NCBI RefSeq assembly: GCF_023856365.1
Contig: NC_064544.1
Coordinates: forward strand, 22,606,399 to 22,670,398
DNA: 64,000 nucleotides
Reading direction: 5' to 3'
From: Brienomyrus brachyistius
Lineage: Eukaryota > Chordata > Actinopteri > Osteoglossiformes > Mormyridae
Under the pieces are notes generated by a model. It was not told where the DNA came from. It made no database searches and saw only the letters and a program-made list of their open reading frames with translations. Shown in pieces: positions 17,551 to 62,716 of this stretch. A program made the position numbers and the translations under genes. Each line of letters opens with the position of its first letter. Position 1 is the stretch's first letter.

Positions 17551-17677
17551 ATGGATGGCCGGTATACGAACATCGAGATGAATTTCGCAAATGATCATTT
17601 GCAAAAGTGCAGCATGTCGTGTGAACAAAAAACAGAATACAGTCATGTTGGAGAATTGTGTACCCAGCCAGGCTTTG
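17551..17677 (+). CDS. gene 1 exon 1: cytoplasmic tail
   Basis: Encodes residues 1-42, starting MDGRYTNIEMNF; the donor is G|GTGAGT. An upstream in-frame ATG at 17503 exists, but the 17551 start is preferred because the paralogue starts at the same position (MDNIYENMELNL) and its exon is also exactly 127 nt. Tyr5 lies in YTNI (YxxPhi; YxN). Residues 28-33, TEYSHV, match the switch-motif consensus TxYxxV. No signal peptide. Confidence 0.75.
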
Positions 17678-20600
17678 GTGAGTGTAACTCTGGTGTTGTT
17701 ATATCTTCTAGGAGCTCAGATGTATTTTGTTACACAGATTACCAGCTAAAATTATAGTTAGTGTGGCATTTACCGGAGATTCAACCGACACTGAAAATCG
17801 ACTAAACTGTCGACTAACAATCGACTAAAATATCTCAGTCTCTAATGATCAATCTCTTGCTGAAGGTGAACTCATCATCGTGAACCACTGATCACTGAAT
17901 GTTATCATATGAATATAAATCTGAGAAAAACTTTCAAGATATATGCAAGAATCATTTGTTAGCCAGAAAAATTACTAATAATAATTAATGGGATTGCATG
18001 GAGAGGCAATAACCATTTTTTAAAACTCTCAGAGCCACAAAGCACTTCTGGGAGAGAGTCTCTGTACAGAAGGACAATGGTGGTGTTCATCTCTCTGTGG
18101 ATCATCACACTGATCATTCTTGGTGCTGTACTCAGTGTCTCATGTAAGTAGTGTTTGCAAAAAGTTTTACAATGTGAACACTGGCAAAACTATACTTCAA
18201 TGGGCTATATGTGTAGAGTAAATTTTTATTTTCAAAAAAGAATTTTCATATGTAAATCTGTAAATCTCTGTTACAACTCAAATCTATCCATTACACGACT
18301 GCAATTTTATATGTATAATATAAAATTAAATGCATAATACAAAACTGTATAATACAATAAATAACAATGAGTAAATCATATATACCAAAGTGCAACTGTT
18401 CCATGGATGTGATATTTATAATTTTTGTGTGTGTACTTGCCTGGTGATGCACTGTATGGTATACCCTGGAGGTTCACCGAAAGGAGGGTTTGGATAAATC
18501 GTGATAAATATTAGCTTGACAGAACTTGGAAGAAGACAGCCTCACATATTCTGAGAACTTACTGTTAACTTTTCCTTTGGCTCTTCTAGTTCTACCAGGA
18601 TCTGGCCTGCAGAATGAGATGACAGACTTACAAAGGATGACATCAAGCAGTATCTTGGGTGAATGTCACTAATTCCACTATATTTTCCATAATCATACAG
18701 GATTGGTACTTTACACCTACTGTCAGTGTTTATCTGTATGAATGCTTTTCTGTCAGAAATACAAGCACGCTTGGAAGACAAGAACAAGCAGCTGGAGACT
18801 AAGAATAGAGAAAACTCAAATCTGAGTGAGTGTTTAACAGGCTGTCCGTACATTTTCCACTAATCAGTCTTGAGACGCATTTTCCTTGTGTTGAAATCCA
18901 TTTTATAATAACAGTCTGGCAGTGGTGGACTGTGATTTTTAAAATGGATGAAAGCAGACTGTGGACTGTTGGCAGTATGACCACAAAAAAGTCTTTCTTT
19001 CTCATGTTAGCAGATAAACTTCTTATATTTAAATTTTGTTCTCCTTCATCAAAGTACTTCTTTCGAATGAAGTCAACATTAGCTACACTACCTGCCAAGT
19101 TGCTTCAAAACCTCTAGTTCAGCTTGAAAACACAAATAGCTTAGTTAGCATACAAGTCAGTATTTTGTGAAACATAATTCCTGTTCTGAAATCCATGATG
19201 TTCAAACAGTGTCACAGTGATTTGAAGTCCGAATCTCTTTAGTGCGCCTCCCACAAATATCACAGCTAATTTTTACTTTGGTCATCTAGTCCAAGAGAAA
19301 TCTGGCCTGCAGAATCAGCTGAAGGAGCTACAAATGAGGACCTCAAACAATATCTCTGGTGAGTGTCACTCAGTTCACTATCTTTCATTTACTAACCAAA
19401 CAGTACTCAACACCTGCTCTCAGTATTTACCCATCTCAGTACTTGCCTATCAGGACTGCAGGTACAACTGGAAGACAAGAACAAGCAGCTGGAGACTAAG
19501 AACAGAGAAAACTCAAATCTGAGTGAGTGTTTAACAGGCTGTCCGTATATCCCTCCATCCATCCATGTTCCAAACCGCTTATCCTACTGGGTTGAGGAGG
19601 GTCCGGAGCCTATCCGGGAAGCAACGGGCATGAGGCAGAGAACAACACAGGATGGGGGGCCAGCCCATCGCAGGGCACATTCATACACCATTCACTCACG
19701 CATGCACTCCTACGGACAATTTAAAAACTCCAATTAGCCTCAGCATGTTTTTGGACTGTGGGGGGAAACCGGAGTACCTGGAGGAAACCCCACGACGATA
19801 TGGGGAGAACATGCAAACTCCGTACACATGTGACCCAGGTGGAGACTCAAACCCGGGTCTTGTAGGTGTGAGGCAACAGCGCTAACCACTGCACCACCAT
19901 GCTGCCCCCGCTGTCCATACATTTTCCACTAATCAGTCTTGAGAAGCATTTTCCTTGTATTGAAATCCATTTTATAATAACAGAGTCTGACAGTGGTGGA
20001 CTGTGATTTTTAAAATGGATGAAAGCAGACTGTGGACTGTTGGCAATATGACCACAAAAGGTCTTTCTTTCTCATTTTAGCAGATAAACTCCTTATATTT
20101 AAATTTTGTTCTCCTTCGTCAAAGTACTTCTTTCGAATGAAGTCCACATTAGCTACACTACCTGCCAAGTTGCTTCAAAACCTCTAGTTCAGCTTGAAAA
20201 CACAAACAGCTTAGTTAGCATACAAGTCAATATTTTGTGAAACATATTTCCTGTTCTGAAATCCATGATGTTCAAACAGTGTCACAGTGATTTGAAGTCC
20301 GAATCTCTTTAGTGCGCCACCCACAAATATCACAGCTAATTATTTCTTTGGTCATCTAGTCCAAGAAAGATCTGGCCTGCAGATTCAGCTGAAGGAGATA
20401 CAAATGAAGACCTCGAGCAATATCTCTGGTGAGTATCACTTAGTTCACTATCTTTCACTTACTAACCAAACAGTACTCAACACCTGCTCTCAGTCTTTAC
20501 CCATCTCAGTACTTGTCTATCAGGACTGCAGGTACAACTGGAAGACAAGAACAAGCAGCTGGAGACTAAGAACAGAGAAAACTCAAATCTGAGTGAGTGT

Positions 20601-23600
20601 TTAACAGGCTGTCCGTATATCCATCCATCCATCCATGTTCCAAACCGCTTGTCCTACTGGGTTGAGGGGGGTCCGGAGCCTATCCGGGAAACAACGGGCA
20701 CGAGGCAGAGAACGACACAGGATGGGGGGCCAGCCCATCGCAGGGCACAGTCATACACCATTCACTCACGCATGCACTCCTACGGACAATTTAACAACTC
20801 CAATTAGCCTCAGCATGTTTTTGGACTGTGGGGGGAAACCGGAGTACCTGGAGGAAACCCCACGACGACATGGGGAGAACATGCAAACTCCGTACAAATG
20901 TGACACAGGTGGAGACTCAAATCCGGTTCCTAGTGGTGTGAGGCAACAGTGCTAACCACTGCACCACTATGCTGCCCCCGGTGTCCATACATTTTCCACT
21001 AATCGGTCTTGAGAAGCATTTTCCTTGTATTGAAATCCATTTTATAATAACAGAGTCAGACAGTGGTGGACTGTGATTTTAAAAATGGATGAAAGCAGAC
21101 TGTGGACTGTTGGCAGTATGACCACAAAAAAGTCTTTCTTTCTCATTTTAGCAGATAAACTCCTTATATTTTAATTTTGTTCTCCTTCGTCAAAGTACTT
21201 CTTTCGAATGAAGTCAACATTAGCTACACTACCTGCCAAGTTGCTTCAAAACCTCTAGTTCAGCTTGAAAACACAAACAGCTTAGTTAGCATACAAGTCA
21301 ATATTTTGTGAAACATATTTCCTGTTCTGAAATCCATGATGTTCAAACAGTGTCACAGTGATTTGAAGTCCGAATCTCTTTAGTGCACCTTCCACAAATA
21401 TCACAGCTAATTTTTACTTTGGTCATCTAGTCCAAGAGAAATCTGGCCTGCAGAATCAGCTGAAGGAGCTACAAATGAGGACCTCAAACAATATCTCTGG
21501 TGAGTGTTACTGAGTTCACTATCTTTCATTTACTAACCAAACAGTACTCAACACCTGCTCTCAGTATTTACCCATCTCAGTACTTGCCTATCAGGACTGC
21601 AGGTACAACTGGAAGACAAGAACAAGCAGCTGGAGACTAAGAACAGAGAAAACTCAAATCTGAGTGAGTGTTTAACAGGCTGTCCGTATATCCATCCATC
21701 CATCCATCCATGTTCCAAACCGCTTACCCTACTGGGTTGAGGAGTGTCCGGAGCCTATCCGGGAAGCAACGGCACGAGGCAGAGAACAACCCAGGATGGG
21801 GGGCCAGCCCATCGCAGGGCACAGTCATACACCATTCACTCACGCATGCACTCCTACGGACAATTTAACAACTCCAATTAGCCTCAGCATGTTTTTGGAC
21901 TGTGGGGGGAAACCGGAGTACCTGGAGGAAACCCCACGACGACATGGGGAGAACATGCAAACTCCGTACAAATGTGACCCAGGTGGAGACTCAAATCCGG
22001 TTCCTAGAGGTGTGAGGCAACAGTGCTAACCACTGCACCACCATGCTGCCCCCGCTGTCTATACATTTTCCACTAATCAGTCTTGAGAAGCATTTTCCTT
22101 GTATTGAAATCCATTTTATAATAACAGTCTGACAGTGGTGGACTGTGATTTTTAAAATGGATGAAAGCAGACTGTGGACTGTTGGCAGTATGACCACAAA
22201 AAAGTCTTTCTTTCTCATGTTAGCAGATAAACTCCTTATATTTAAATTTTGTTCTCCTTCATCAAAGTACTTCTTTAGAATGAAGTCCACATTAGCTACA
22301 CTACCTGCCAAGTTGCTTCAAAACCTCTAGTTCAGCTTGAAAACACAAACACCTTAGTTAGCATTCAAGTCAATATTTTGTGAAACATATTTCCTGTTCT
22401 GAAATCCATGATGTTCAAACAGTGTCACAGTGATTTGAAGTCCGAATCTCTTTAGTGCGCCTTCCACAAATATCACAGCTAATTATTTCTTTGGTCATCT
22501 AGTCCAAGAAAGATCTGGCCTGCAGATTCAGCTGAAGGAGATACAAATGAAGACCTTGAGCAATATCTCTGGTGAGTGTCACTGAGTTCACTATCTTTCA
22601 CTTACTAACCAAACAGTACTCAACACCTGCTCTCAGTATTTACCCATCTCAGTACTTGTCTATCAGGACTGCAGGTACAACTGGAAGACAAGAACAAGCA
22701 GCTGGAGACTAAGAACAGAGAAAACTCAAATCTGAGTGAGTGTTTAACAGGCTGTCCGTATATCCATCCATCCATCCATGTTCCAAACCACTTATCCTAC
22801 TGGGTTGAGGGGGGTCCGGAGCCTATCCGGGAAACAACGGGCACGAGGCAGAGAACGACACAGGATGGGGGGCCAGCCCATCGCAGGGCACTGTCATACA
22901 CCATTCACTCACGCATGCACTCCTACGGACAATTTAACAACTCCAATTAGCCTCAGCATGTTTTTGGACTGTGGGGGGAAACCGGAGTACCTGGAGGAAA
23001 CCCCACGACGACATGGGGAGAACATGCAAACTCCGTACAAATGTGACCCAGGTGGAGACTCAAATCCGGTTCCTAGAGGTGTGAGGCAACAGTGCTAACC
23101 ACTGCACCACTATGCTGCCCCCGCTGTCCATACATTTTCCACTAATCGGTCTTGAGAAGCATTTTCCTTGTATTGAAATCCATTTTTTAATAACAGAGTC
23201 AGACAGTGGTGGACTGTGATTTTAAAAATGGATGAAAGCAGACTGTGGACTGTTGGCAGTATGACCACAAAAAGGTCTTTCTTTCTCATTTTAGCAGATA
23301 AACTCCTTATATTTAAATTTTGTTCTCCTTCGTCAAAGTACTTCTTTCGAATGAAGTCAACATTAGGTACACTACCTGCCAAGTTGCTTCAAAACCTCTA
23401 GTTCAGCTTGAAAACACAAATAGCTTAGTTAGCATACAAGTCAGTATTTTGTGAAACATAATTCCTGTTCTGAAATCCATGATGTTCAAACAGTGTCACA
23501 GTGATTTGAAGTCCGAATCTCTTTAGTGCGCCTCCCACAAATATCACAGCTAATTTCTACTTTGGTCATCTAGTCCAAGAGAAATCTGGCCTGCAGAATC

Positions 23601-26600
23601 AGCTGAAGGAGCTACAAATGAGGACCTCAAACAATATCTCTGGTGAGTGTTACTGAGTTCACTATCTTTCATTTACTAACCAAACAGTACTCAACACCTG
23701 CTCTCAGTATTTACCCATCTCAGTACTTGTCTATCAGGACTGCAGGTACAACTGGAAGACAAGAACAAGCAGCTGGAGACTAAGAACAGAGAAAACTCAA
23801 ATCTGAGTGAGTGTTTAATAGGCTGTCCGTATATCCATCCATGATCCAAACCGCTTATCCTACTGGGTTGAGGGGGCTCCGGAGCCTATCCCGGAAGCAA
23901 CGGGCACGAGGCAGGGAACAACACAGGATGGGGGGCCAGCCCATCGCAGGGCACACTCATACACCATTCACTCACGCATGCACTCCTATGGGCAATTTAG
24001 CAACTCCAATTAGCCTCAGCATGTTTTTGGACTGTGGGGGCAAACCGGAGTACCTGGAAAAAACCCCACGACGACATGGGGAGAACATGCAAACTCCGTA
24101 CAAATGTGACCCAGGTGGAGACTCAAACCCGGTTCTTGGAGGTGTGAGGCAACAGTGCTAACCACTGCACCACCATGCTGTCCCCGCTGTCCATACATTT
24201 TCCACTAATCAGTCTTGAGACGCATTTTCCTTGTGTTGAAATCCATGTTATAATAACAGTCTGACAGTGGTGGACAGTGATTTTTAAAATGGATGAAAAC
24301 AGACTGTGGACTGTTGGCAGTATGACCACAAAAAGGTCTTTATTTTTCATTTCAGCAGATAAACTCCTTATATGTAAATTTTGTTCTCCTTCATCAAAGT
24401 ACTTCTTTCGAATGAAGTCAACATTAGGTACACTACCTGCCAAGTTCCTTCAAAACCTCTAGTTCAGCTTGAAAACACAAACAGCTTAGTTAGCATACAA
24501 GTCAATATTTTGTGAAACATATTTCCTGTTCTGAAATCCATGATGTTTAAACAGTGTCACAGTGATTTGAAGTCCGAATCTCTTTAGTGCGCCTTCCACA
24601 AATATCACAGCTAATTATTTCTTTGGTCATCTAGTCCAAGAAAGATCTGGCCTGCAGATTCAGCTGAAGGAGCTACAAATGAAGACCTCGAGCAATATCT
24701 CCGGTGAGTGTCACTGAGTTCACTATCTTTCACTTACGAATCAAACAGTACTCAACACTTGCTCTCAGTATTTACCCATCTCAGTACTTGTCTATCAGGA
24801 CTGCAGGTACAACTGGAAGACAAGAACAAGCAGCTGGAGATTAAGAACAGAGTAATCTCAAAACTGAGTGAGTATGTTATTAAATATCAATATTTTCAAG
24901 TGCTTCAATCAATGCAACCCAAACACAAACATTTTTGAACCATTTTCACTGTGCTGAAACAATGTATTATAGAAACTGTTTCAGACTGATCTGTATGAGG
25001 AATCTCTTTTCAATGAGCCTCTGAAACATGTTATTGCTACTTTTTATTTGATTTTACAGTCCTACAGAAGTTTGACTTGCAGAATGAGGTTCGGGAGCTA
25101 CAGACCATTGGTGAGTGATGCATACATTCTCCCATTTCTTCGCTGTTTGTTTTAAGCTTCCATTATGATTACATAAAAATGAATCATGTCTGGTCATATG
25201 ACAGCTATATTGCCAGAATTTTGAACACCCTATATTTTATCATTTTTGGGTAAACTCTGGCTAAGCAGTACAGTCAATGTAAATACCCTGTCAGAACTAT
25301 TTAAAGAAGGTGGAAGATAAAGGGAGTGACATGAATGAATTGAAAGTGATGACATGGTCTGTACAATTACCTGACCTTAACCTCATTGCGCTGATTTGAG
25401 GTGGAATGGAAAGAAAGGTCAATGCAGTGAGTTACGTGATGCTCACCACTGATGGCTGCCTTGCTCTGCACTTACAGGCATCCCTTTCACCCTTTTCCCC
25501 CCATCCATAGTGCCTTAGCCACTTCCATGTCAGTAAATTAGCTCAGATTTGCTGGACCATCTGGTTGTCCCTCCTGATGGCTGCTAGTCAGCGCCGACCT
25601 CATCTGCTCTTTGCAGTCCGGAGAACAATTCGCCGTGCTTTGATGGCGATGTAAGTGAGGACGCCCTTGCCTGGCTCCTTTACATGAGGAGATGAAAAAC
25701 GTCGGGCAATGCTTTACATTAACTGTACCTTCATAAAGCATTCATTATGCATTAATAGAACATTCAGTGCTCTGTCATAATACATTCATATGCATGTTTT
25801 TAGTGTATATTAAGGCTGTTAAGGTATGTTAGGATATTAAGGTATACTTACATGCTTCTTTTGAATGCTCTATAAATGCATTATGTAGGGGCACTGAATG
25901 TTTGATGAATGCATTATAAAGGCATCATGAAGGTGCAGTTAAGGTAAAGCGTTACTAAACGTTGTATCCGAGCAGGTAAACTCACTAGGTGTCTTACTCC
26001 TGCAATACTATTTGGAGCTTGAAGTTGACTTGAATGCACCTCAGTAAAGGCTGAAACCAATCAGCACTCCAAGGAGCTGGCTGATTTTAATAAGGGACTG
26101 CTTTCTCTGGACAACAGAATAACAGATTAAAGACAGAAGCTGTCGCCTTGGCCCGAAATTAATTGGTGTTAAGCTTGGTTGCGAAGCTGTAGCCTACTAT
26201 TTTCCCTCATCTCTCTGATTTTCACCCAGTCATTGACCTTACTCACAGGCTGTACGGTATATCAGAAAACTCTTCTCGTCCCCCTCTCATCCTTATGCAC
26301 TTCATGGACTTTTGTGACCAATGGACAGTGATTTGCGAAGCCCACAAAATCCAAGACCTCAACTTTGAAGGCGGGAGAATCTTCTTTTTTTTTTACACGA
26401 CTTTAGCGCTAAAACAGCTGTTGCTGGGAAAGTGATAAATGCCCCAATCAGGACAACAAAGGAGTTGGAGTTTCTCTTTTTTTGATCTTTCCCGTGCACC
26501 TGAAGCTCTCCTTTGAAAGTCTGCATATTTAGTATATTAATCCTGAGGATCCAAAAACCGCCATGGATCATTTCCAATCTCTTGAGACTGTCCCTACTTG

Positions 26601-29600: not shown

Positions 29601-32396
29601 TTTGGATCTTGAGCCGCCTCTGTACCTTAAGATATCTCTCAACCACATGCACTCGTTCAGGTTCTGTTCTCACCGGAGGCCTTATGGTCCATACCTAACT
29701 ATGGTTATAGTTTCGGTAGCCAGGGATCACTCCACTATGACTCCTGCCTTCAGCTGTCGCCTGATCCACATTGCAATGGACCCTTATGGCTCCTCCTGCA
29801 AGTGGTGGGGCCACATGACAATGATCCCATGTATGATTATTTTGAATTGCACTTATTCTGACCCCCCACCTATAGGACCAGTTTATTGTGAGTCCCTACC
29901 AGGGGTGTAAGTGACAATCCTTCTTCTTCTTTATGCCACTAATGGGGCAGGTGTTCAGCAAATAGTCTGACGCGACAAAAAGTTCCAGAACTCAAAATCG
30001 TCATTTAAAAAACATTTACTAATAAAATATATCAAAAGGAAACATTTACAAAACAAAACATTTAAGATGTTTATACTTCCACTAATTAATTTGTTAAGTT
30101 TAATCGTAGTCAGTAGGAAAACATGTATATCATGTGACATATTGCGTGCCGTTACGCAAGTGCTTTCCACCTAGTGGTTAAACTAACAAATGCACTCCAC
30201 AATAATGAACTAAACAATACTGTTTCACATATTCTAATGAATAACATAATAATTTAAACAATGAACAAAAACCTATTTTTCCCATATGGCTCTTACATGG
30301 GGAAAACAGCTTCTAGGATCACTGAGACACAAAAACACCTCCACGATGATTAGGTGGCGATTCATAGAGGGTACATGACCTCAAAATGGCAACAAAAATG
30401 TTTTAGTGGCAATATGAATGTTGCCGATTCAACTACATGATACAATGAAGATTTAAACAGGTATCATTGTGTTTGATTAACTTATAAAAGTATAATTTAA
30501 ATAAGGGTCAGTGAAAATCATAATAAAACAGTAACAAATATAGTGATAAATAGAATCTATTAAAGATTCAAGATTTGGAGCATTATTGAAATGTGCACAG
30601 AACACAATGTTCAAAATAGTATTAAATTTGGTAATCCTTCACTTAAAGCCATCATCTATAATGCATTATAGATACCTTCATCGTGCATTATAATGTCTTG
30701 TATAACAATTAACAAAGAATTACAGCATCTTCCATTGACAGTCATGAGGCATTATACTGTTCATTATAATACTTCATAAGCTCCAGTGAAACTGTCATCT
30801 AAAATTCACTATAGATACCTTCATAATGAGTGAATGAGTGAATGTTACATTTCTATAGCGCTTTACAAAACCAATGGGAGCCATTTCATTCAGCACCACT
30901 GTGTAGCTGACACCTATAATGATGTAGCACCCACCTGAATGATGTGACAGCAGCCATTCGGTGCCAGCATGCATCCCACACAGTAACAAAGGTGGTGAAG
31001 GGGCAGGAGAGAATTCACCAGCTAGATATAGGTTATGATTAGGAGGCCAGATTTTATAGGGCCACAGTGGGCAATTTTAGCCAGGACATAAGGAAATGCA
31101 TTATAGTGGATGGAATAAGGATTAAGGATGCAAATACATTTTATTTACACAAGATGTTTTATTTCAGCTGAAGATGGATTTGCCAAATGGACAAGTAAGT
31201 TTTTCAATATTCAAATGTTATCTTAATGTAACTCATTATTGGTTTTCACTCACTTGAAAGCCACTTTCTATATTTTTGTTTTCAGTGTTATTAAATTAAC
31301 CTTCTGACTTGTCAGATGGATGAAGGTTTTCTTTTTCTGTCTCTCAAAATATACTGCCAGCATTTTTCTGCTGAGAGTATCAAAAGAAAGTAGACGGTAT
31401 AGACTTGTTTAAATGAATTTATATAAATTATTTATTAAATAACTGTCCCAACATTACTATATTAGGAAAAAGGAGGGAATCATATATGAAAAGACGTTGC
31501 ACATTTAATAATTTTGAACGAGAGTGAGCCTGCAATCTGACGTCATTAATGGAATCTGTTTAGATAAACAAGGAATTGTCCGACAAGAAGTGTGGAAGTG
31601 GATCCGTAAAGCAGCAGGTAGGACTGAGTTGATTCAGGGTTTTTTTTAGGTAATTAATATTTATATTAGAAAAATAAGTCAGAAAATTTTGTAAATGTAT
31701 GAATGTATTATTTAATTGAGATGCTTCGACAGCTAAATTTGTTCAATCAGCTTTAAAGCATAAAGGAATCATTCGTAGATGTACCATACTGTACTGTCTA
31801 CTGTGTCCTCTCTGTTGCAGGGTGATCTATGAAGGAACCTAAAGTAACACTTATATTTATTATTTGCAGCTAATGTCATTCTGGACCCCAGAACAGCACA
31901 TCGTAATCTTACTGTTTCTGAGGACGGCAAACAAGTGACATTCAGTGGTGGCCTCCTACCTGACAGCCCATTGAGGTTCAGTAATTGGTACGGGATCCAG
32001 GGAAAAGAGAGTTTCTCTTCAGGGAGACATTACTATGAGGTTCAGGTTGGGACAAGGGGATGCTTTTCAGTTGGATTTGTGAAAGAGTCTGTTGAAAAGA
32101 TGAAGTATACTGTAACTTCAGAGAGTGGCTTCCTGATGTTCATACTCGAGAAGAATGTGTACAAAGTTTCAACAACCCCCCCCACCTCCCTCTCTCTGAA
32201 CGAGCCCCCTAACAATGTGGGGGTGTATGTGGACTATGACAAGGGGCAGGTTTCCTTTTACAATGTGGGCACCAGGTCCCATATCTACTCTTTTACTGGT
32301 TACAACTTCAGTGAGAAACTCTATCCAGCTGTTAACTCCTGTAACAGTATGACATCAGGTCCCCTGATCATTTCTCCTGTCAGTCACACAGCCTGA
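17551..32396 (+). CDS. gene 1: type II membrane protein, long coiled-coil stalk, C-terminal PRY-SPRY
   Basis: A spliced model of 20 exons adds to 1863 nt (620 aa plus stop). Exons: 17551-17677, 18033-18143, 18590-18658, 18757-18825, 19290-19358, 19454-19522, 20360-20428, 20524-20592, 21431-21499, 21595-21663, 22503-22571, 22667-22735, 23574-23642, 23738-23806, 24635-24703, 24799-24867, 25060-25110, 31168-31194, 31564-31617, 31870-32396. All junctions are GT..AG and phase 1. The protein has a 57-residue N-terminus with no signal peptide, a transmembrane segment at about 58-79 preceded by YRR (N-terminus inside), 14 stalk units of 23 residues (80-401), linkers (402-445) and B30.2 (446-620). The role is inferred to be a cell-surface immune-type receptor. 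The N-terminal plan resembles fish CD209/CLEC receptors, but no lectin domain is present. The family was not identified. Exon choice is by eye; alternative skipping of stalk exons would stay in frame. Confidence 0.75.
18033..18143 (+). CDS. gene 1 exon 2: transmembrane exon
   Basis: Encodes EPQSTSGRESLYRRT followed by the hydrophobic run VVFISLWIITLIILGAVLSV (about residues 59-78). The acceptor is CTCTCAG and the donor T|GTAAGT; 111 nt, phase 1-1. Basic residues lie only on the N-terminal side, predicting a type II orientation. The gene 2 counterpart is the same length and almost identical in sequence. Confidence 0.85.
18590..24867 (+). CDS. gene 1 stalk: 14 exons of 69 nt in tandem array
   Basis: Seven pairs of exons, each exon exactly 69 nt (23 residues) in phase 1. 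Type A exons (18590, 19290, 20360, 21431, 22503, 23574, 24635) encode versions of SGLQNQLKELQMRTSNNIS. Type B exons (18757, 19454, 20524, 21595, 22667, 23738, 24799) encode versions of LQVQLEDKNKQLETKNREN. They are rich in Leu, Gln, Glu and Lys, with no Cys or Pro after the first exon, as expected for an extended coiled coil. Six A exons end in an N-I-S glycosylation sequon. The last B exon has diverged at its end (NRVISKLS). All acceptors (CTAG or ATCAG) and donors (GTGAGT) are intact. Confidence 0.8.
19549..19909 (-). mobile_element. SINE in gene 1 intron, array unit 1
   Basis: Antisense full-length SINE flanked by GCTGTCCGTAT (19538-19548) and GCTGTCCATAC (19910-19920). The uninterrupted target is visible in the older unit at about 18840-18850. 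Confidence 0.9.
20619..20979 (-). mobile_element. SINE in gene 1 intron, array unit 2
   Basis: Same insertion as in unit 1, copied by tandem duplication. It shares private variants (GAAACAACG, GAACGACAC, ACCACTATG) with the copy in unit 4. Confidence 0.9.
21690..22053 (-). mobile_element. SINE in gene 1 intron, array unit 3
   Basis: Same insertion, closest to the unit 1 copy (GAAGCAACG, GAACAACC). Confidence 0.9.
22762..23122 (-). mobile_element. SINE in gene 1 intron, array unit 4
   Basis: Same insertion, near-identical to the unit 2 copy, including ACCACTATG at its head. Confidence 0.9.
23833..24185 (-). mobile_element. SINE in gene 1 intron, array unit 5
   Basis: Same insertion with a shortened CATC tail (ATCCATCCATGATCC) and private changes. 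This copy explains the shorter 1061-bp spacing to the next unit. Confidence 0.85.
25060..25110 (+). CDS. gene 1 exon 17: 51-nt stalk-end exon
   Basis: Encodes LQKFDLQNEVRELQTI, a shortened A-type unit; acceptor TTTTACAG, donor G|GTGAGT. The gene 2 counterpart (60442-60492) is the same length and reads QQRSDLQNEVKELHTI. Confidence 0.75.
25250..25400 (+). repeat. fragment of unclassified dispersed repeat
   Basis: AATACCCTGTCAGAACTATT followed by AAAGAAGGTGGAAG, then GACCTTAACCT, aligns with 48860-48960 and 8450-8530. Confidence 0.55.
25706..25955. mobile_element. MITE of about 250 bp with long terminal inverted repeats
   Basis: The left end GGCAATGCTTTACATTAACT and the reverse complement of the right end (GTAACGCTTTACCTTAACTG) pair over 30 bp or more, including TACCTTCAT / CACCTTCAT. 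Outside, AAACGTC and AAACGTT form a likely target duplication of 7-8 bp, which would suit a hAT-type nonautonomous element. No coding capacity. Confidence 0.65.
25956..26600 (+). mobile_element. possible decayed L1/Tx1-type ORF1 fragment
   Basis: A frame near 26280-26385 reads LILMHFMDFCDQWTVICEA then HKIQDLNFEGGRIFFF, which resembles the end of the ORF1 RNA-binding domain of fish Tx1-type LINEs. Stops and frameshifts are common and no ends were found. Confidence 0.35.
26800..27430 (-). mobile_element. decayed teleost LINE reverse transcriptase fragment
   Basis: On the minus strand, near 27385-27420, a frame contains KLADDATMISLKS, the catalytic box of a LINE reverse transcriptase. It continues in broken frames through the following palm/thumb region (about 27070-27370). 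It looks like the same LINE family as the 3' pieces at 6428-6900 and 50471-50830. Confidence 0.5.
27490..30365 (-). mobile_element. decayed RTE LINE copy inside gene 1 intron
   Basis: It aligns along its length with the RTE element at 13903-16606, in the same antisense orientation. The 3' end CATCCATCAATCCATTGGC lies at about 27490. Reverse transcriptase pieces at 28147-28594 include CSNFWEITLLSFPRKVYATV and CFVDLEKAYALVPWG. Endonuclease pieces follow to 29890, and the 5' leader segment is at 30290-30365. Unlike the 13903 copy it retains sequence between about 27880 and 28290 that covers the region deleted there. An AT-rich block (about 29905-30285) interrupts the 5' part. Many stops; dead. 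Confidence 0.65.
30640..31090. repeat. fish-type repetitive debris in gene 1 intron
   Basis: 30640-30830 contains repeated words TATAGATACCTTCAT and CATTATAATG in both orientations. 30830-31090 starts with (GAATGAGT)n and TTCTATAGCGCTTTAC, a word common in fish dispersed repeats. No ends were fixed. Confidence 0.35.
31168..31194 (+). CDS. gene 1 exon 18: 27-nt microexon
   Basis: Encodes AEDGFAKW plus split codons; acceptor ATTTCAG, donor A|GTAAGT. The exact counterpart in gene 2 is 60813-60839 (AEDGFAKW), which supports this very short exon as real. Confidence 0.75.
31564..31617 (+). CDS. gene 1 exon 19: 54-nt linker exon
   Basis: Encodes KQGIVRQEVWKWIRKAA; acceptor GTTTAG, donor G|GTAGGA. 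Identical in protein sequence to gene 2 61888-61941 apart from the split first codon. Basic and aromatic; likely forms the end of the stalk before B30.2. Confidence 0.75.
31870..32396 (+). CDS. gene 1 exon 20: PRY-SPRY (B30.2) domain
   Basis: Encodes residues 446-620. PRY: VILDPRTAHRNLTVSEDGKQV, split here as LDPRTAH and VSEDGKQV. SPRY: SGRHYYEVQV, VGFVKESV, VGVYVDYDKGQVSFYN and YPAVNSC, the usual B30.2 landmarks in order. The length of about 175 residues is normal. Two N-glycosylation sequons (NLT and NFS) are present. Ends at TGA 32394-32396. B30.2 domains are protein-interaction folds, usually cytosolic in TRIM and butyrophilin proteins; here the membrane topology predicts an extracellular position. 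Confidence 0.9.
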
Positions 32397-39865: not shown

Positions 39866-40801
39866 ATGGGGCCGGCTCAGTGTTGCGTTTGCAACATGTT
39901 TGCCCTTCTGGACGTTAGTGTCCAGTCGGACTTCATCTGCGAGCGATGTAAGCTAGTGGACTCGCTCATGGTCAAGGTTCGCGACCTTGAGGAGCAACTG
40001 GCTCTCATCCAATGCAACAGTGAGTTAGAGGAGCAAGTTCATACGCCTTTTAGGGAGAAGGTGTGTACGCCACTAGCCGGGAGGGGGGAGAATGAAGAGC
40101 AGAGAGGTCGAGAGAGCTGGGTGACTGTAGGTCGTAGACGCAGGAAGGGGCGTACACACGTTGCAGAGGCGGCATCACCTGAGGTGACTGTGTCGAACAG
40201 GTTTCAGGTTCTTCCAGCTTTAGAGCCGGAAGGGACTGGGGAGGCAGGTGGGCCCTTGGGCACTGAGGAGCCCCCTCCCCCCAGGAAGAGGGAGGTTGTG
40301 GTAGTGGGGGATTCCATTATTAGGGGAGTAGACAGTTATGTGTGCACGCGTGATAGAGGGTCCCGTACGGTGTCTTGCCTGCCTGGTGCCCAGGTAGGAG
40401 ACCTTCCAGATCGTGTGGATAAGCTTTTGGCCCCAGCTGGGGTGGATCCAGTTGTCGTGGTGCATGTTGGCACCAACGACATAGGCAAGGGTAGAAGGGC
40501 TGTTCTGCAGGATAAATTTATAGAAGTTGCCAATAAGCTTAGAAGCAGAACGTCCACGGTGGTATTCTCCGAAATACTCCCCGTGCCACGTGCAAGTCAG
40601 GCTAAGTTAGCTGAGATAAGGAAATTAAATGCGTGGCTAAAAGGATGGTGTAGGAAAGAGGGGTTTAGGTTCATGGGGCATTGGAGGACCTTCTGGAACA
40701 GGTGGGACCTGTTCAAGCCGGATGGGTTGCACCTGAACCAGAGGGGAACCAGTGTATTGGGGAGGCGTATGTGTAGAGTCGTTGAGGAATGTTTAAACTA
40801 G
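39866..40801 (+). CDS. CR1 LINE ORF1: Cys-rich motif plus SGNH esterase-like domain
   Basis: 311 residues. The N-terminus has a zinc-ribbon or PHD-like cysteine set (CCVCNMF...ICERC, residues 7-33) followed by a short coiled coil (VRDLEEQLALIQ). The C-terminal half is an SGNH hydrolase: GDSIIRG (about 148, nucleophile Ser), VVHVGTNDIGKG (about 201, Asn block) and DGLHLN (about 290, Asp-His block). ORF1 esterases of this kind are known from CR1 elements and are thought to help retrotransposition, perhaps at membranes or in RNA-protein particles. The catalytic residues all appear present. Ends TAG at 40799-40801, overlapping the ORF2 start. Confidence 0.85.
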   Translation: MGPAQCCVCNMFALLDVSVQSDFICERCKLVDSLMVKVRDLEEQLALIQCNSELEEQVHTPFREKVCTPLAGRGENEEQRGRESWVTVGRRRRKGRTHVAEAASPEVTVSNRFQVLPALEPEGTGEAGGPLGTEEPPPPRKREVVVVGDSIIRGVDSYVCTRDRGSRTVSCLPGAQVGDLPDRVDKLLAPAGVDPVVVVHVGTNDIGKGRRAVLQDKFIEVANKLRSRTSTVVFSEILPVPRASQAKLAEIRKLNAWLKGWCRKEGFRFMGHWRTFWNRWDLFKPDGLHLNQRGTSVLGRRMCRVVEECLN

Positions 40802-51935: not shown

Positions 51936-52039
51936 CCAGAAGAGTTGTAGAATATTATACCTTCAGAATTGTATACAACAATATGTTGTATAAGGACTGG
52001 AATAAAACAGCTGCCTTTGAACCAGCCTTGATTCTCATG

Positions 52040-52200
52040 CTTCCTCTTTGCATGTGGACCATGCATGTTCTTTCTGTATCTGTGTGAGTCCCTCCCCCCA
52101 CAAACCAACACCACCAGCCCCATGACCAATGCTTCCTGTTATATGAATCGGGGTCTCTAAGCTGCCCATAGCGCATGAGGGAATACTCATAGTTTTATCT
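52040..52200 (+). mobile_element. SINE-derived sequence upstream of gene 2
   Basis: GGACCATGCATGTTCTTTC and CTTCCTGTTATATGAATC then CTAAGCTGCCCATAG match SINE body sequence and the flank of gene 1 at 17460-17510. It ends about 25 bp before the gene 2 start. Confidence 0.5.
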
Positions 52201-52225
52201 GTTCTTAATTCTACTTATACCAGAA

Positions 52226-52352
52226 ATGGATAACATATATGAAAACATGGAGCTGAATCTCACAACTGATCATTCACAACATTCAGTTAATTTATCTGGA
52301 TCAGGAAAGCAGTTTACTCCTGCTAGAAAAATCAGTGCCCAGCCAGACCACG
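52226..52352 (+). CDS. gene 2 exon 1: cytoplasmic tail
   Basis: Encodes MDNIYENMELNL and on to ISAQPDH; donor G|GTGAGA. Tyr5 lies in YENM, which fits both YxxM (PI3-kinase p85 SH2) and YxN (Grb2 SH2) consensus and YxxPhi endocytosis signals. The TxYxxV motif of gene 1 is absent. Confidence 0.75.
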
Positions 52353-55300
52353 GTGAGAGTAACTTGAATGCTTTTCATACCTTGCATGTATCGGCAAATT
52401 TCTGATTTGTTTTGTTAGTGCACAAATTATTAGTTGTGAGTAAACAGGTTTGGTGTTGATCATAGATTAGGTTTGCATTGGGGTTCATCTACTAAAGATC
52501 TTACTCTTTAGATTAATCTCTTGCTGCAACTCCTGGATGTAACATCCTCGACCTAGATTGGCTCCTTGAATGCTGTATGTGTGTAGCACACTGTCTGTCT
52601 CATTTTATATGTTGCTTTGAACAAAAACTTCTGCTAAAGAAATGTCATCATTGTGAGGTGCAATGGCTTCTGATGCTGAATACTGGATTTTTAATGTGAA
52701 TTTCATTAAATTAAATCAAGATATGTGCAAGAATCAGTTCAGAAAAACATATGTCTGAATAGGACAGCATGGACATGTGACTCGGTGTGCTAAGAATTAC
52801 ATAATTTAATTTGAAACCCTCAGAACCACAAAGCACTTCTGGCCGAGAGACTCTGTATAAGAGGACATCGGCAGTGTTCATCTCTCTGTGGATCATCACA
52901 CTGATCATTCTCATCGCTGGACTGAGTGTCCTGTGTAAGTAGTTTAAGTGATTAGCTTAACCGTTAAAGTGTAAACACTGTAAATTATACTGCAGTAAGC
53001 TTTAGCTCTAGGGTAAATGAACTTTTAGAAGATTATAAAACATCTATTGTGTATTGTTTTATGTGTGCACCCATGATAGAGGGTCCCGTATGGTGTCTTG
53101 CCTGCCTGGTGCCCAGGTAGGGGACCTTCCGGCTTTTGGCCCCAGTCGGGGTGGATCCAGAGGTCGTGGTGCATTTTGGCACTAATGACTTTGGAAAGGG
53201 CAGGAGGGCTATTCTGCAGGACGAATTTAGTCGCGGATATGCTTAGAAGCAGAACATCCATGGTGGTATTCTCTGGAATACTTTCCGTGCCACGTGCAAG
53301 CCAGGCTAAGTTAGCTGAGATAAGGGGATTAAATGTGTGGCTAAAATGGTGGTGTAGGAAAGAGGGGCTTAGGTTTATGAGGCACTGGAAAACCTCCTGG
53401 AACAGGTGGAACCTGTTCATGCCGGACGGGATACATCTGAACCAGAGGGGAACCAGTATGTTGGGGAAGCATATGTGTAGAATAGTTGAGGAATGTTTAA
53501 CCTAGTGACTGGGGGGGCAGGGAGGTTAGTTAAGAATATAAGTGGGGAGAGACGGAAAGCCCAAATTAATATTAAAGACACTGTAAAAGGCCTACCCTTG
53601 TCGGTCTGTATCTAAATGCTAGGAGTATTAGAAACAAAATTCATGATTTAGAGGCTTTAATTTCATCAGACTCTTATGACATTATAGGAATAACTGAAGC
53701 ATGGATGAGCGACAATGATGGAGAAGAATATAATATGGATGGTTACACGTTGTTCCGTAGAGACCAGATAGGCAAGAAGGGAGGTGGTGTTGCAATATAC
53801 GTAAAAGAAAATTTGCAGGCAAGGGAGCTTACTGGTAAAAAATAAAAGTACAGAAGCTGTATGGATAAAAGTAGATGCTAAAAACTCAAATAGTCTAATT
53901 GTCAGTGTTTGTTATAGAGCATCTAATGTAGCTGCAGAAGAAAGCAGAATGTTATATGACGATATCAGGATTATGAGTAATAAAAATGATGTGGTGGTTA
54001 TGGGTGATTTTAATTTACTTGGGATTCAGTGGGACACAGTCTCTGGCTCTTCTGTAAATGAACTTGAGATGGTAGAATTAGTACAGGATTGTTTCTTTAC
54101 TCAGTTTGTTAATACCCCTACCAGGGGAGAAGCCCCTCTTGGTTTTGTTTTCTCTAATAAACAGGATAGGATTGGAAAATTAGAGGTTTTAGAACCACTT
54201 GATGGTAGTATTCATAACATGGTTAAATTTGAGGTTAATTTTAGTGTCCGAAAAGCAAAGTTCAAAACAAAAGTATACAATGTTAGGAAGAGTAACTTTA
54301 ATGGTATGAGACTGAAACTAGAAAATGTAAACTGGATGGAGTTAAACAGCAAAACAGTTGAAGAGGCATGGGAATTTTTTAAAAGCTCATTGTTGCAAGT
54401 GCAAGAGGACTTCATACCTGTTTCCAGCAAAACTAAATCTAGGAAACTACAAGCAAGGTGGTTTACTAAGGAAATTAAGAATAAAGTCAGGAGGAAACGG
54501 GTTCTGTTCCACAAATGGGAATTAACTAATGATTTAGATACAGGAGTATCTAAGTCTACAGGTCGAGTTAAAAAATAACATTAGATACTCCAAGAGGAAT
54601 ATAGAAAGAAAGATTGCATTGGAGGCTAAGGATGACAATAAAAGTTTCTTCCAATACTTTAACTCCAAAAGAGCTCTAAAAGCTGAAATCACTAATTTGC
54701 AGGATAGTAAGGGCCTTATAATTGAAAATGAAATTGATATAGTAAATGAGTTGAATGATTATTTTACACAGCTGTTCACAGTAGAGAACACGATTAACTT
54801 ACCACCATTTAGTATGAATACAGCGTTGTCTATGACCAATATATGTATAACTGAGGCTGATGTGGTACTAAGCCTAGCTAAGCTCAAAATAAATAAATCA
54901 CAGGGGCCTGATGGCATCTTACCTATAGTTTTAAAAGAGATGAGGGATATTATTAGCCAACCTTTAACTTTAATATTCCAGAAATCGTTATCTGCGGGTG
55001 TGGTACCTTCTGATTGGAAGCATGCTAATATAACACCCGTATTCAAAAAAGGGGATAGAAGTAATCCAGCAAACTATAGGCCAATCAGTTTAACTAGCAT
55101 TACTGGAAAAATAATGGAAGCTATAACCTAAATGAAAATGGTAGATTACCTGGATTCAAATAACAATCTGAGGGATAGCCAACATGGATTTAGGATAGGT
55201 AGATCCTGTTTAGCTAATTTATTTGAGTCCTTTGAGGAAGCTACAAGAGAATTTCATCACAAAAAGCTTACGATGTTATCTGTGTAGATTTACAGAAGGC

Positions 55301-58300: not shown

Positions 58301-61300
58301 CCATTCATGCCGCATGGACCCCTTTGGTACTGTATCTCTTCAGAGAATCCTTGGGTACCGCTGGTTTTACTTTGTGTTGAACAAACGTTTGCTAGAGGAG
58401 TCCCGATTGAGGCACATTGTGCAATGTGAAGGAGCGTCAGTTATGACATTACGCCAGCATGTGGCGCGTTTCCTTGAGGGTGATCCGACTCACAGGATCC
58501 TCATTGTTGAAAACCCAAGCGGCTGGATCAGGCTTGAGCAGACATGCACGTAACACCTGGCTGCGGCAGATGGATGGCTATTTCCGGACTGTGGGACTTG
58601 ACCATGTGTCTGCCTGGGGGGTTTCGCCGTGTGGTGGGTGTGGCGACGCACTGCGTCAGCGCATTCTCCCCAACCTGACCTCACCTGACCTGACCTACAT
58701 TGCTGTATCATGTTTGGTTCTGGCTAACTTCAGCTTATGCATATTAAGTTGCAGAACATCACCGATGGAGGGTAACTTTGAACCAGAGAGAGCTTCTTTG
58801 TTTGAGCCAGACATGAAGCAGATATACTTCTGTTTGTTGACGTTACCATGACTGTGAAACAAAAACAACATTGTCAGTATTTAGCAATTTACCATATCAC
58901 CAGTGCTGACAAATGACAAAGGTATTGTCTATTAAAATACATAATACTGTTAACATGCAAGTTGTAAGCATTTGAGAATCCATACACTGTTTAATAGAAA
59001 CTTTGCTATACATTGCCTAATATATGAATAGATAAAACACTCTAATGACTGATTGCCTGCCAGCCCAAATAGCGTGAAATACTCAATTTGTTTAATTCAC
59101 ATATGGATTCTCATTTCACTTGAACTGAACATTCCCCAAATATCAAGTTATCTTGATAATAAATGACACTTCTACATTCCTGTAATTTTTTTCCCATACA
59201 TTTTTGGACCACCCTAATGTGCCCTTTCAAATCGGTTTCACTGATTTATCACTAAAGCAGAAATATAACTTTATATTCTATGTTATCTAAAAAAAAAATC
59301 TGGTTATAACCCACTGGAATTTTGTATGTAAAATGTAGGAGAAATACAGTCTGAGTCAGACCAGCTTATTAATACAATATATAACAGCGAGTAATACATT
59401 TATACCTGTGTACTGTTATACACCACAGTCTAACAACTCCATGGTTGTAATATTCATTTTTGATAGTTGTTCTATACATGGCCGAGGCTGCTCGGGCGGG
59501 GAGTACCCTCTAATTCCTTAGATAGGGTACAAGTTCACAGAAACCTTGGTGTGGATGGTGGTGGTACTGGATGGTAGAAATCACTATTAAAATTTCTTTT
59601 GGTTTCCTAGTAATACAAAAATCTGACCTGCAGAATCAGCTGAAGGATTTACAAAGGATGACCTCAAACAATATATCTGGTGAGCATTACTGACAGATAC
59701 TGTACACCTACTCATAGTATTTGCCTGTATGAATACTCACCCATCAGAAATACAGACACAGCTGGAAAATAACCAGCCAATGACTAAGAACCAGGAAATC
59801 TCAAGAATATTTACAAATTATCTGTACCTACATGTGCACTAATCCATCTTAGGCAATTATAAAGTGTTTTCCACGTCACAAAAAAGTGTCACAGTGAGCC
59901 TCCCATAGATATTGCTGCTAACTTATACTTTGGTCGTCTAATCCAAGAAAGATGTGACATGTATGAAACAGCCAATCAGATTTATTTATGTACTTAACCC
60001 CTGTTGTTTCATCTGTGTTACGACAGACATTAAATGAAAAAATCCGATGTCATGCACACGATCGTAAAACTGAAAAATATCACAATGTTATTCTCATTTT
60101 TTATTCTTTAGCCCTAAATAGATATCTGTTCATGTACTGAGGATGTGATCCTGGGGGGGGGGGGGTCATAAACAATACCTCTGAGTTCACTATTTTTCAT
60201 GTACATGCAAGTTTGGTATTCTGCATCTGCTCTCTGTTTTTACCCATCTTAATACTTGTCTGTCAGAAATGCAGGCACAACTGGAAGACAAGGACAAGCA
60301 GCTAGAGTCTAAGAACAGGGAAAACTCAAATCTGAGTGAGTGTTTAAGCTGCTCATACATAAGTCATGCTAATCAGTAATAAATATTTGTGAAATATTAC
60401 GATTGTGCTTAAATCCATTTTGTAAAAAGACTTTCTAATAGTCCAACAGAGATCTGACCTGCAGAATGAGGTGAAGGAGCTACACACCATTGGTAAGTTT
60501 CATTAACATTAACCTTCACCCATTCGCCTGCTTATCTGCCCTCAGTTTGTACAAATCATGGGCTTCCTTTACCAATATCATTCTAATTGTACATCAGTAT
60601 AATGAGGAGGTTGAAATGTTGTAATGTTTTCTGTAATTGATGTAATGATGTGTTTGTATGGTTTGTTATTGTAATATATTGGAATCTTAGATTTATGTTT
60701 GATTATCTAAGGTGTCCCTGTTTGCTCTTCTGTTGAAATATGGGTTATTCATGCAATGTAAACAGTATTGCTTTATAAAATACATTTTTTTGTCACTTGA
60801 TTTTTATTTCAGCTGAAGATGGCTTTGCTAAATGGTCATGTAAGTTTTTCAATCAGATTTTTTTCCAAGTTATATATATATATATCCATCCATCCATCCA
60901 TTTTCCAAACCGCTTATCCTACTGGGTCGCGGGGGGTCCGGAGCCTATCCCGGAAGCAATGGGCACGAGGCTGGGAACAACCTAGGATGAGGGTCCAGCC
61001 CATCACAGGGCACACTCATACACCATTCACTCTCACATGCATTCCTACGGGCAATTTAGCAAGTCCAATTAGCCTCAGCATGTTTTTGGACTGTGGGGGG
61101 AAACCAGAGTACCCGGAGAAAACCCCACAACGACATGGGGAGAACATGCAAACTCCACACACATGCGACCCAGGCGGAGATTCGAACCCGGGTCCCAGAG
61201 GTGTAAGACAACAGTGCTAACCACTGTACCACCATGCCACCCCATGAGAACACATACCTTTGTGAAATCAATAGAGAACACATTCGGAAATATAATTATC

Positions 61301-61592
61301 ACCGTAAGACCAAGCCTAACAAGGGAGAAATAAACTGAGATAATGTAGGCTGCTTTACAAGAATACGCAGCTGCAAAACAATGTGGCTAGCTGGTTAGCT
61401 ATCCCGTGCTCCCAAATTCCACTTTAGAAATAAAAGTTACACAAAACAACCCTCTTCTCAAGCCCTCATATCATGTATGTAATAATCAATGTATAAATTA
61501 CTTTTAGAAATAAGAAGCTGGTATTCTTTTCTATCAAGCTGCCTGAGATACATAAATCTCAACGTCAGGTAGAATTTTATTTTATATAGAAG

Positions 61593-61640
<48 letters not shown>

Positions 61641-62716
61641 TAAATTAAGTTTCTGACTTCTGAGATGGATGAAAATTCCCTTTTCTGTCTCGCAAAATAT
61701 ACTGCCGCCATTATTCTGCTGAGAGTATTAATGGAAAGTAGACGGTATAAGCTTGTTAAAATGAATAAATATCTAAACCTGATTGTTAGAAAAAATGAGG
61801 GAATCATATATGAATAGATTTTGCACATTTGATAATTCTGGATCAGAGTGAGGCTGCAATCTGACGTCATTAATGGAATCTGTTTAGATAAACAAGGGAT
61901 TGTCCGACAAGAAGTGTGGAAGTGGATCCGTAAAGCAGCAGGTAGGACTGAGTTGATTCAGGGTTTTTTTAGGTAATTAATATTTATATTAGAAAAATAA
62001 GTCAGAAAATTTTGTAAATGTATGAATGTATTATTTAATTGAGATGCTTCGACAGCTAAATTTGTTCAATCAGCTTTAAAGCATAAAGGAATCATTCATA
62101 GATGTACCATATTGTACTGTCTACTGTGTCCTCTCTGTTGCAGGGTGATCTATGAAGGAACCTAAAGTAACACTTATATTTATTATTTGCAGCTAATGTC
62201 ATTCTGGACCCCAGAACAGCACATCGTAATCTTACTGTTTCTGAGGATGGAAAACAAGTGAGATTCAATGACCACCTCCTACCTGACGGCCCACTGAGGT
62301 TCAGTAATTGGTACGGGATCCAGGGAAAAGAGAGTTTCTCTTCAGGGAGACATTACTATGAGGTTCAGGTTGGGGCAAAGACATGTTATGTAGTTGGTTT
62401 TGCAAAAGAGTCTGTCAAAAGGAAGGAGAAGTTTAATAAAACCTCAGAGGAAGGCTTCTGGACCTTCAAACGGCAGACGGGGTATGAGGTTTCTACAACC
62501 CCCCCGAGCTCCCTTTCTCTCAACGAGCCCCCTAACAAGGTGGGGATTTATGTTGACTATGATAGGGGGCAAATATCCTTCTACAATGTGGGCACCAGGT
62601 CCCATATCTACTCTTTTACTGGTTACAACTTCAGTGATAAACTCTATCCAGCTTTTAATCCCTGTAAAAGTTTGACAATTCCACTGATCATCTCTCCTGT
62701 CAAACACACAGACTGA
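52226..62716 (+). CDS. gene 2: type II membrane protein, short stalk, C-terminal PRY-SPRY
   Basis: Eight exons add to 1032 nt (343 aa plus stop): 52226-52352, 52824-52934, 59611-59679, 60267-60335, 60442-60492, 60813-60839, 61888-61941, 62193-62716. All internal junctions are GT..AG and phase 1. Exons 1 and 2 and the three linkers have exactly the same lengths as in gene 1; the SPRY exon is 3 nt shorter. The protein has a cytoplasmic tail with YENM (1-57), a transmembrane segment (58-79), one A and one B stalk unit (80-125), linkers (126-169) and B30.2 (170-343). Two further stalk exons have decayed (59748, 59943). The CR1 copy and a TIR element sit in the 6.7-kb intron 2. It likely has the same role as gene 1, with a much shorter reach from the membrane. 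Confidence 0.75.
52600..52645 (+). mobile_element. SINE/L2-type tail fragment
   Basis: TTGCTTTGAACAAAAACTTC then TGCTAAAGAAATG matches the tail type seen at 38080-38118. Confidence 0.45.
52824..52934 (+). CDS. gene 2 exon 2: transmembrane exon
   Basis: Encodes SLYKRTSAVF-like juxtamembrane sequence (TLYKRTSAVF) and the hydrophobic run ISLWIITLIILIAGLSVL. Acceptor CCCTCAG, donor T|GTAAGT; 111 nt as in gene 1. Confidence 0.85.
53060..55970 (+). mobile_element. 5'-truncated, internally deleted CR1 LINE in gene 2 intron
   Basis: It aligns with the intact CR1 from ORF1 position about 40350 onward. The remaining ORF1 end (about 53064-53505) and ORF2 pieces (53949-54578, 54619-55131, 55350-55892) are split by frameshifts and a stop at 55131. 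At about 55327 the sequence jumps from HKRLP-coding to the segment matching 43085, removing about 455 bp that include the GVPQG and FADD boxes. It ends in TTCTTATG-type repeats at about 55965. Confidence 0.85.
56569..57503. mobile_element. piggyBac-type MITE, 935 bp
   Basis: CCCTCTGGGGTC at the left and GACTCCAGAGGG at the right are inverted repeats. TTAA flanks the left side (56565-56568); the right flank has changed to CTAG. Much of it matches 45794-46445 in inverted orientation. Confidence 0.75.
57510..58700 (+). mobile_element. decayed LINE fragment, clade unknown
   Basis: Broken frames read like a LINE reverse transcriptase C-terminal region: ERFTYLGSDIHFSGDSSYEF and RAWGG, IFARGQRKSLESWC, FGTVSLQRILGYRWFYFV, RLLEESRLRHIVQ, HVARFLEGDPTHRILIVENP and WLRQMDGYFRTVGLDH. 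The upstream part (ALSADKQAFVRQICKQVTHH, RLAVRVGDGTVLSDDTAVVT) corresponds to the pre-RT linker. The palm with catalytic residues is missing. It ends in (TGACC)n-like words at about 58690. Confidence 0.6.
59217..59610. other. gene 2 intron sequence before the first stalk exon
   Basis: No feature besides the intron end; acceptor GGTTTCCTAG at 59601-59610. Confidence 0.5.
59611..59679 (+). CDS. gene 2 exon 3: A-type stalk exon
   Basis: 69 nt encoding IQKSDLQNQLKDLQRMTSNN and IS; donor G|GTGAGC. Ends in an N-I-S sequon like the gene 1 A exons. Confidence 0.75.
59748..59820 (+). pseudogene. decayed B-type stalk exon in gene 2
   Basis: Acceptor CCATCAG is intact and the frame starts EIQTQLENNQPMTKNQEIS, but the expected donor GTGAGT is replaced by AATATTTAC, so it cannot end as its gene 1 counterparts do. 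Skipping it keeps the frame. Confidence 0.65.
59943..60011 (+). pseudogene. decayed A-type stalk exon in gene 2
   Basis: TCCAAGAAAGATGTGACATG aligns with the start of gene 1 A exons (TCCAAGAAAGATCTGGCCTG), but the acceptor CTAG has become CTAA and the exon body is lost after about 20 bp. Confidence 0.55.
60267..60335 (+). CDS. gene 2 exon 4: B-type stalk exon
   Basis: 69 nt encoding MQAQLEDKDKQLESKNREN and SNL; acceptor TGTCAG, donor A|GTGAGT. Very close to gene 1 B exons. Confidence 0.75.
60442..60492 (+). CDS. gene 2 exon 5: 51-nt stalk-end exon
   Basis: Encodes QQRSDLQNEVKELHTI; acceptor CTAATAG, donor G|GTAAGT. Same length and position as gene 1 25060-25110. Confidence 0.72.
60813..60839 (+). 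CDS. gene 2 exon 6: 27-nt microexon
   Basis: Encodes AEDGFAKWS; acceptor ATTTCAG, donor T|GTAAGT. Confidence 0.72.
60886..61243 (-). mobile_element. SINE in gene 2 intron, antisense
   Basis: CATC tail at 60886-60902, tRNA-like head at 61225-61243. It is inserted beside a (TA)n run. The matching intron of gene 1 (31195-31563) lacks it, so it postdates the duplication. Confidence 0.9.
61589..61637. repeat. (TTA)n microsatellite
   Basis: About sixteen TTA units in the gene 2 intron. Confidence 0.9.
61888..61941 (+). CDS. gene 2 exon 7: 54-nt linker exon
   Basis: Encodes KQGIVRQEVWKWIRKAA, as in gene 1; acceptor TGTTTAG, donor G|GTAGGA. Confidence 0.75.
62193..62716 (+). CDS. gene 2 exon 8: PRY-SPRY (B30.2) domain
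   Basis: Encodes residues 170-343: LDPRTAH, VSEDGKQV, SSGRHYYEVQV, VGFAKESV, VGIYVDYDRGQISFYN and KLYPAFNPC, ending TGA. It differs from gene 1 mainly in the central loop (KRKEKFNKTSEEGFWTFKR) and at scattered PRY positions. NLT and NFS sequons are kept. Confidence 0.9.

Follow-up and report, generated by a model that had tools for sequence, protein, structure and literature searches.

Two genes of Brienomyrus brachyistius belong to a predicted family of ray-finned fish membrane proteins with a probably outward-facing B30.2 domain

B30.2 (PRY-SPRY) domains are chiefly known for acting as sensors in the cytosol. A membrane-bound arrangement was published in 2011 for zebrafish btr31, described as RING-TM-B30.2, with the membrane between RING and B30.2 and with consequences that were called unknown (PMC3137616). 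FinTRIM and NLR genes have earlier been reported to swap B30.2 exons (PMC2657112), and the neck of human CLEC4M consists of 23-residue, 69-bp repeats which influence tetramer formation (PMC5794141). An initial annotation of a 64,000-bp stretch of the B. brachyistius genome (NC_064544.1, positions 22,606,399 to 22,670,398; hereafter the window) proposed two genes joining a transmembrane (TM) segment and a stalk to a C-terminal B30.2 domain, and knew of no described family with this layout. Our literature search, covering titles and abstract openings with subscription journals thinly represented, likewise found, among the papers listed, no description of a short tail-TM-stalk-B30.2 layout, but the statement has to be qualified by the earlier publication of btr31.

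Reading and splicing the DNA at 17551-32396 (gene 1) and 52226-62716 (gene 2) confirmed that both gene models contain a tail, a TM exon, a stalk and a B30.2 exon. The two genes follow a common plan, consisting of a short tail, one TM exon, stalk exons mostly of 69 bp and a B30.2 exon, with fewer stalk exons in gene 2 (Table 1). The initial annotation had placed exon 1 and the TM, stalk and B30.2 exons correctly, but had overlooked a 54-bp phase 1 exon ahead of B30.2, which encodes KQGIVRQEVWKWIRKAA and which both annotated proteins, P0002 and P0003, contain. With this exon counted, the predicted products are 620 residues (gene 1) and 343 residues (gene 2) long. Pfam recognised PRY and SPRY in gene 1 (1.2e-13 and 5.9e-23) as well as in gene 2 (8.1e-14 and 2.1e-25). 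All internal exon borders of both genes are of phase 1, with AG/GT except at the degenerate candidate exon of gene 2, in a single open frame up to the stop. Because every internal exon both starts and ends in phase 1, any one of them can be skipped with the frame kept. Within the gene 1 array, similarity among units 1-5 is 92.8 to 98.2%, and the second exons are identical in five of the six units. Two types of stalk exon alternate in the array (QEKSGLQNQLKEL and QERSGLQIQLKEI/L), as from duplication of a two-unit block. The array units also include a stretch that looks like a repeat and that, judged by eye, has counterparts elsewhere in the window. Two long open frames (40786-43653 and 13922-15739), whose translations were read by eye, resemble non-LTR retrotransposon proteins.

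Table 1. Features of the two genes and of related loci. Positions are those of the window, except in the last line, which gives contig coordinates.
Feature	Position	Strand	Basis or remark
Gene 1 exon 1, tail (MDGRYTNIEM...)	17551..17677	+	DNA reading, splicing; part of P0003
Gene 1 TM exon	18033..18143	+	DNA reading, splicing; part of P0003
Gene 1 stalk exon, 69 bp	18590..18658	+	Splicing; part of P0003
Gene 1 stalk exon, 69 bp	18757..18825	+	Splicing; part of P0003
Gene 1 tandem array, six ~1,070-bp units, two 69-bp (23-residue) stalk exons per unit	19290..24867	+	P0003 takes 6 of 12 exons
Gene 1 stalk exon, 51 bp	25060..25110	+	Splicing; part of P0003
Gene 1 linker exon, 27 bp (AEDGFAKWT)	31168..31194	+	Splicing; part of P0003
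Near-identical counterpart of gene 2 at about 61874-62222; gene conversion is probable	31550..31899	+	Alignment of gene 1 with gene 2
Gene 1 linker exon, 54 bp (KQGIVRQEVWKWIRKAA)	31564..31617	+	In P0003; VWxW motif in relatives
Gene 1 PRY-SPRY (B30.2) exon and stop	31870..32396	+	Pfam, splicing
Gene 2 exon 1, tail (MDNIYENMEL...)	52226..52352	+	DNA reading, splicing; part of P0002
Gene 2 TM exon	52824..52934	+	DNA reading, splicing; skipped in P0002
Gene 2 stalk exon	59611..59679	+	DNA reading, splicing, comparison with P0002
Gene 2 degenerate candidate stalk exon, without GT donor	59748..59804	+	Absent from P0002
Gene 2 stalk exon	60267..60335	+	Splicing, comparison with P0002
Gene 2 stalk exon, 51 bp	60442..60492	+	Splicing, comparison with P0002
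Gene 2 linker exon, 27 bp	60813..60839	+	Splicing, comparison with P0002
Gene 2 linker exon, 54 bp	61888..61941	+	Comparison with P0002
Gene 2 PRY-SPRY (B30.2) exon and stop	62193..62716	+	Pfam, splicing, comparison with P0002
Two further family genes	Same contig, 22346802-22359424 and 22571320-22586032	-	Match P0004 and P0121

P0003 (B. brachyistius, named TRIM39-like isoform X20) corresponds letter for letter to a subset of the gene 1 exons, with which two exon choices are compatible, and runs in one predicted model from the tail of gene 1 through its TM, stalk and linker to its B30.2. P0002 (B. brachyistius, named ERMAP-like isoform X2) reproduces gene 2 minus the TM exon, again letter for letter. 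Among the proteins fetched, none joined tail, TM and B30.2 for gene 2 itself; its Paramormyrops relative P0001 joins all three. P0002, P0003 and all relatives are gene predictions. The family tail is present and the TM exon absent in P0002, P0006 and P0082; P0006 (Scleropages) carries the tail and linker with two B30.2 domains. In-frame skipping of the TM exon would yield a second, cytosolic form of the protein.

At least four genes of the family are present in the Brienomyrus genome, all on one 27.9-Mb contig and within about 322 kb. A search of this genome, in which 120 of 819 candidates were scored, gave four close B30.2 copies; these share 75-87% identity with the query, compared with 51% for the copy that ranks after them. 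Two of the four lie inside the window. The other two have lower coordinates and the opposite strand, and both carry tail and TM exons, which match P0121 and P0004 to 100%. Judged by eye, the pairs of stalk exons in the gene matching P0121 are about 700 bp apart, as against 1,070 in gene 1.

A protein search gave 15 models of this layout from eight species: Brienomyrus P0003, P0004 and P0121; Paramormyrops P0001 and P0005; Albula P0016, P0017 and P0027; Megalops P0026; Amia P0020, P0022, P0023 and P0029; gar P0021; and sturgeon P0024. The best 120 of 1204 matches were examined, P0121 being added from a search with the front part only, and members were picked by hand for an N-terminal hydrophobic segment with no RING and no Ig; models with a tail or linker but no TM exon were excluded (the tail-bearing P0002, P0006 and P0082, and other, partial ones). 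Fourteen models, two of them from Brienomyrus, thus stand beside P0003 of gene 1, and the layout extends over sturgeon, gar, bowfin, tarpon, bonefish and mormyrids. Pfam found PRY and SPRY in all 15; of RING, B-box, Ig and C-type lectin domains it showed none, either in the columns covering all 15 members or in the domain tables of ten (for P0020, 25 of 28 rows). Two features were invariant in the alignment of the 15: a tryptophan in the TM segment (W57 in gar) and the V-W-x-W motif in the linker. VWxW occurred in 24 of the 121 fetched proteins, namely 23 family or linker-bearing proteins and the Ig protein P0031, and in none of 63 RING proteins (RING status counted by hand from the Pfam column). 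It stands directly ahead of PRY in 22 of the 24; the P0018 model is broken there by an apparent unspliced intron, and in P0031 the motif lies at the TM and not ahead of PRY. Most members have a tail with a YxN-like motif, which we take to be of the kind bound by SH2 adaptors, and the tyrosine of the first tail motif is replaced by cysteine in Amia P0020, P0022, P0023 and P0029. As judged from these gene predictions, the layout is real and common to several early-branching ray-finned fish lineages, and both window genes fall into a family of predicted membrane proteins that is unrecognised in its names, which were assigned automatically as TRIM38- or TRIM39-like, A33-like, ERMAP-like, butyrophilin-like or hypothetical.

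The side of the membrane on which B30.2 lies was approached by the charge-difference rule, which placed the C-terminus outside in 14 of the 15 members (mean -2.47) and inside in 10 of 11 butyrophilin controls (mean +3). The butyrophilin exception, P0035, was scored on a stretch not resembling a TM segment. The family exception, P0005, with a charge difference of +1 against the rule, has an extra hydrophobic stretch at its start; the equivalent place before exon 1 of gene 2 has, by eye, an in-frame stop, and therefore the matching region is probably untranslated there. The structure model of P0001 (mean pLDDT 80, pTM 0.59) consists of a disordered tail, a single helix (51-138) across TM and stalk, a linker helix (150-157) and a confident B30.2 domain. 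The predicted type II layout of the initial annotation and a helical stalk find support in the charge rule and the P0001 model, by which B30.2 is placed probably outside the cell, a likely but not certain position.

Sequons in B30.2, of which NLT and NFS had been read as suiting an extracellular position, turned out to be near chance when compared with shuffles (gene 1: 2 observed, 2.17 expected; gene 2: 3 observed, 1.53 expected). On average a B30.2 domain has 1.27 sequons in the family, against 0.93 in RING proteins and 0.5 in butyrophilins; neither difference is clear (p 0.34 and 0.11), and the sequon test was set aside. In the stalks of the ten non-mormyrid members, 28 sequons against about 16.4 expected (hand sums) are suggestive only; those of mormyrid stalks are near chance. 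Cysteine counts were likewise rejected as a test: the family mean of 1.27 per B30.2 domain is lower than that of RING proteins (2.88) but not clearly below that of butyrophilins (1.5), and the usable domains (15 of 15 family, 60 of 63 RING and 10 of 11 butyrophilin) come from related rows, so topology is left undecided by them. A disulfide between C225 and C318 of P0001 was also discarded, since among 120 domains the second cysteine occurs in 13 of the 15 that have the first, most of these being close relatives, but also in 57 of the 105 others.

An outward-facing B30.2 is the reading that we consider best, and a likely one. The hydrophobic segment would act as a signal anchor that stays uncleaved and keeps the tail inside, the stalk would form an oligomer, and several B30.2 heads would point outward and bind ligand by variable loops, much like the heads of DC-SIGN-type lectins; clustering by ligand may then signal via the tail tyrosine. 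Taken as a whole, this explanation of a type II protein with an outward B30.2, an oligomeric stalk, ligand-binding heads and a signalling tail has good odds in our judgement, its receptor function and tail signalling being what we infer. Between gene 1 and gene 2, dN/dS was 0.31 for the TM exon, 0.49 for the B30.2 exon and 0.89 for the tail exon; the fast tail, together with the cysteine replacement in Amia, argues against a strictly kept signalling tail. The low value for the TM exon, its presence in models from eight species and the C-out charges of 14 of the 15 members speak against a cytosolic sensor, in which the main product would lack the TM exon or the segment would be inserted the other way round. 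P0002, P0006 and P0082, all TM-less, agree with such a sensor, as do B30.2 sequons near chance and the solved B30.2 relatives, which among the matches listed are mostly TRIM, pyrin and butyrophilin intracellular domains and so mostly cytosolic; on balance we regard it as unlikely. Derivation from a butyrophilin by loss of its Ig exons appears highly improbable: the charges flanking the TM are opposite, no Ig domain occurs in the family models, and VWxW is found in just one Ig protein, P0031, at its TM rather than before PRY. Such a loss would agree with the best Foldseek match, the intracellular domain of BTN3A1, with the small linker exons ahead of B30.2 and with the clustering of the Albula P0016 B30.2 with that of an Albula butyrophilin.

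The initial annotation derived the genes from an exon shuffle that joined a CLEC-like front to B30.2, for which no support was obtained: searches with the front only, whose reach is short, returned family members alone. Descent from a C-type lectin gene whose lectin exons were swapped for a B30.2 exon is compatible with the outward-facing receptor preferred above, and seems to us doubtful. The general layout is that of CD209-type lectins as commonly understood, and Lectin_N (E 0.005) and Ly49 (E 0.22) were weak Pfam matches of P0001, both below cut-off. The 69-bp, 23-residue stalk unit matches the CLEC4M neck (PMC5794141), in which, however, the repeats share one exon, as against one exon per repeat here. 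Moreover, Lectin_N is found in at most one of the 15 members, and the front-only searches gave six family proteins among 73 candidates and one among 68, with no lectin homologue of tail and TM at a reach of close relatives. The search giving one of 68, made with gar, returned its own query alone and missed known family members, so that absence from it is weak evidence. The 23-residue repeat length shared with CLEC4M is a likeness of design, with no homology to lectins found by these short-reach searches.

Gene 1 and gene 2 are identical at 249 of 252 positions in the intron ahead of B30.2 and at 447 of 527 in the B30.2 exon, a pattern of the kind left by gene conversion; a recent conversion tract probably ends within the B30.2 exon. 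Codons 58-87 of B30.2 (dN/dS 0.96; remaining blocks 0.14 to 0.76) form a fast patch in this comparison, without proof of positive selection. For a B30.2 tree, 116 domains were extracted, 5 proteins having no usable domain, and 84 were used (the family, ids below P0045, even ids and some butyrophilins). In this quick tree, with many weak forks, grouping was more by fish lineage than by layout and the family rows were scattered, which gives no support to a single origin of the family as read from B30.2. Albula P0016 paired with an Albula butyrophilin (support 82) within a group of more butyrophilins from Albula and Megalops; the partner of Amia P0029 was P0039, an A33 protein of Amia (support 87). 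The lineage-wise grouping suggests exchange of B30.2 exons. A class of extracellular oligomeric B30.2 receptors, with B30.2 exons swapped with TRIM and butyrophilin genes and with TM-exon skipping switching sides, is a wider proposal that we offer tentatively, with rather more doubt than belief.

If an outward B30.2 on an extendable stalk is true, these proteins, hidden behind automatic names, would represent a new way of building a surface immune receptor, from sturgeon to mormyrids; a shared exon pool, if true, would mean one set of recognition modules for both sides of the membrane. Of the published layouts encountered, that of btr31 (PMC3137616) comes nearest to the family, in having a TM ahead of a C-terminal B30.2, so that the membrane would lie between the N-terminus and B30.2, but btr31 carries a RING and no longer has the coiled coil, whereas the family models lack a RING and combine a short tail with a long helical stalk. 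An N-terminal RING, a hydrophobic segment and B30.2, as in btr31, were seen in P0007 (Umbra) and in the percomorph P0033, P0053 and P0062, named TRIM or hypothetical; three of these four also match the TRIM coiled-coil model, and the charge rule gave N-in for two and a tie for two. With butyrophilins and ERMAP the family shares one TM and a B30.2 domain, the best fold match being BTN3A1; unlike them, its models have no Ig and the flanking charges are opposite (14 of 15). TRIM39/bloodthirsty and finTRIM proteins likewise have a coil followed by a C-terminal B30.2, but the family models possess a TM and no RING or B-box. The CD209/CLEC4M lectins are alike in the 23-residue repeat unit and in the type II layout, which for the family is predicted by charges; they differ from the family, which has B30.2 in place of the C-type lectin domain and its 69-bp repeats as separate exons.
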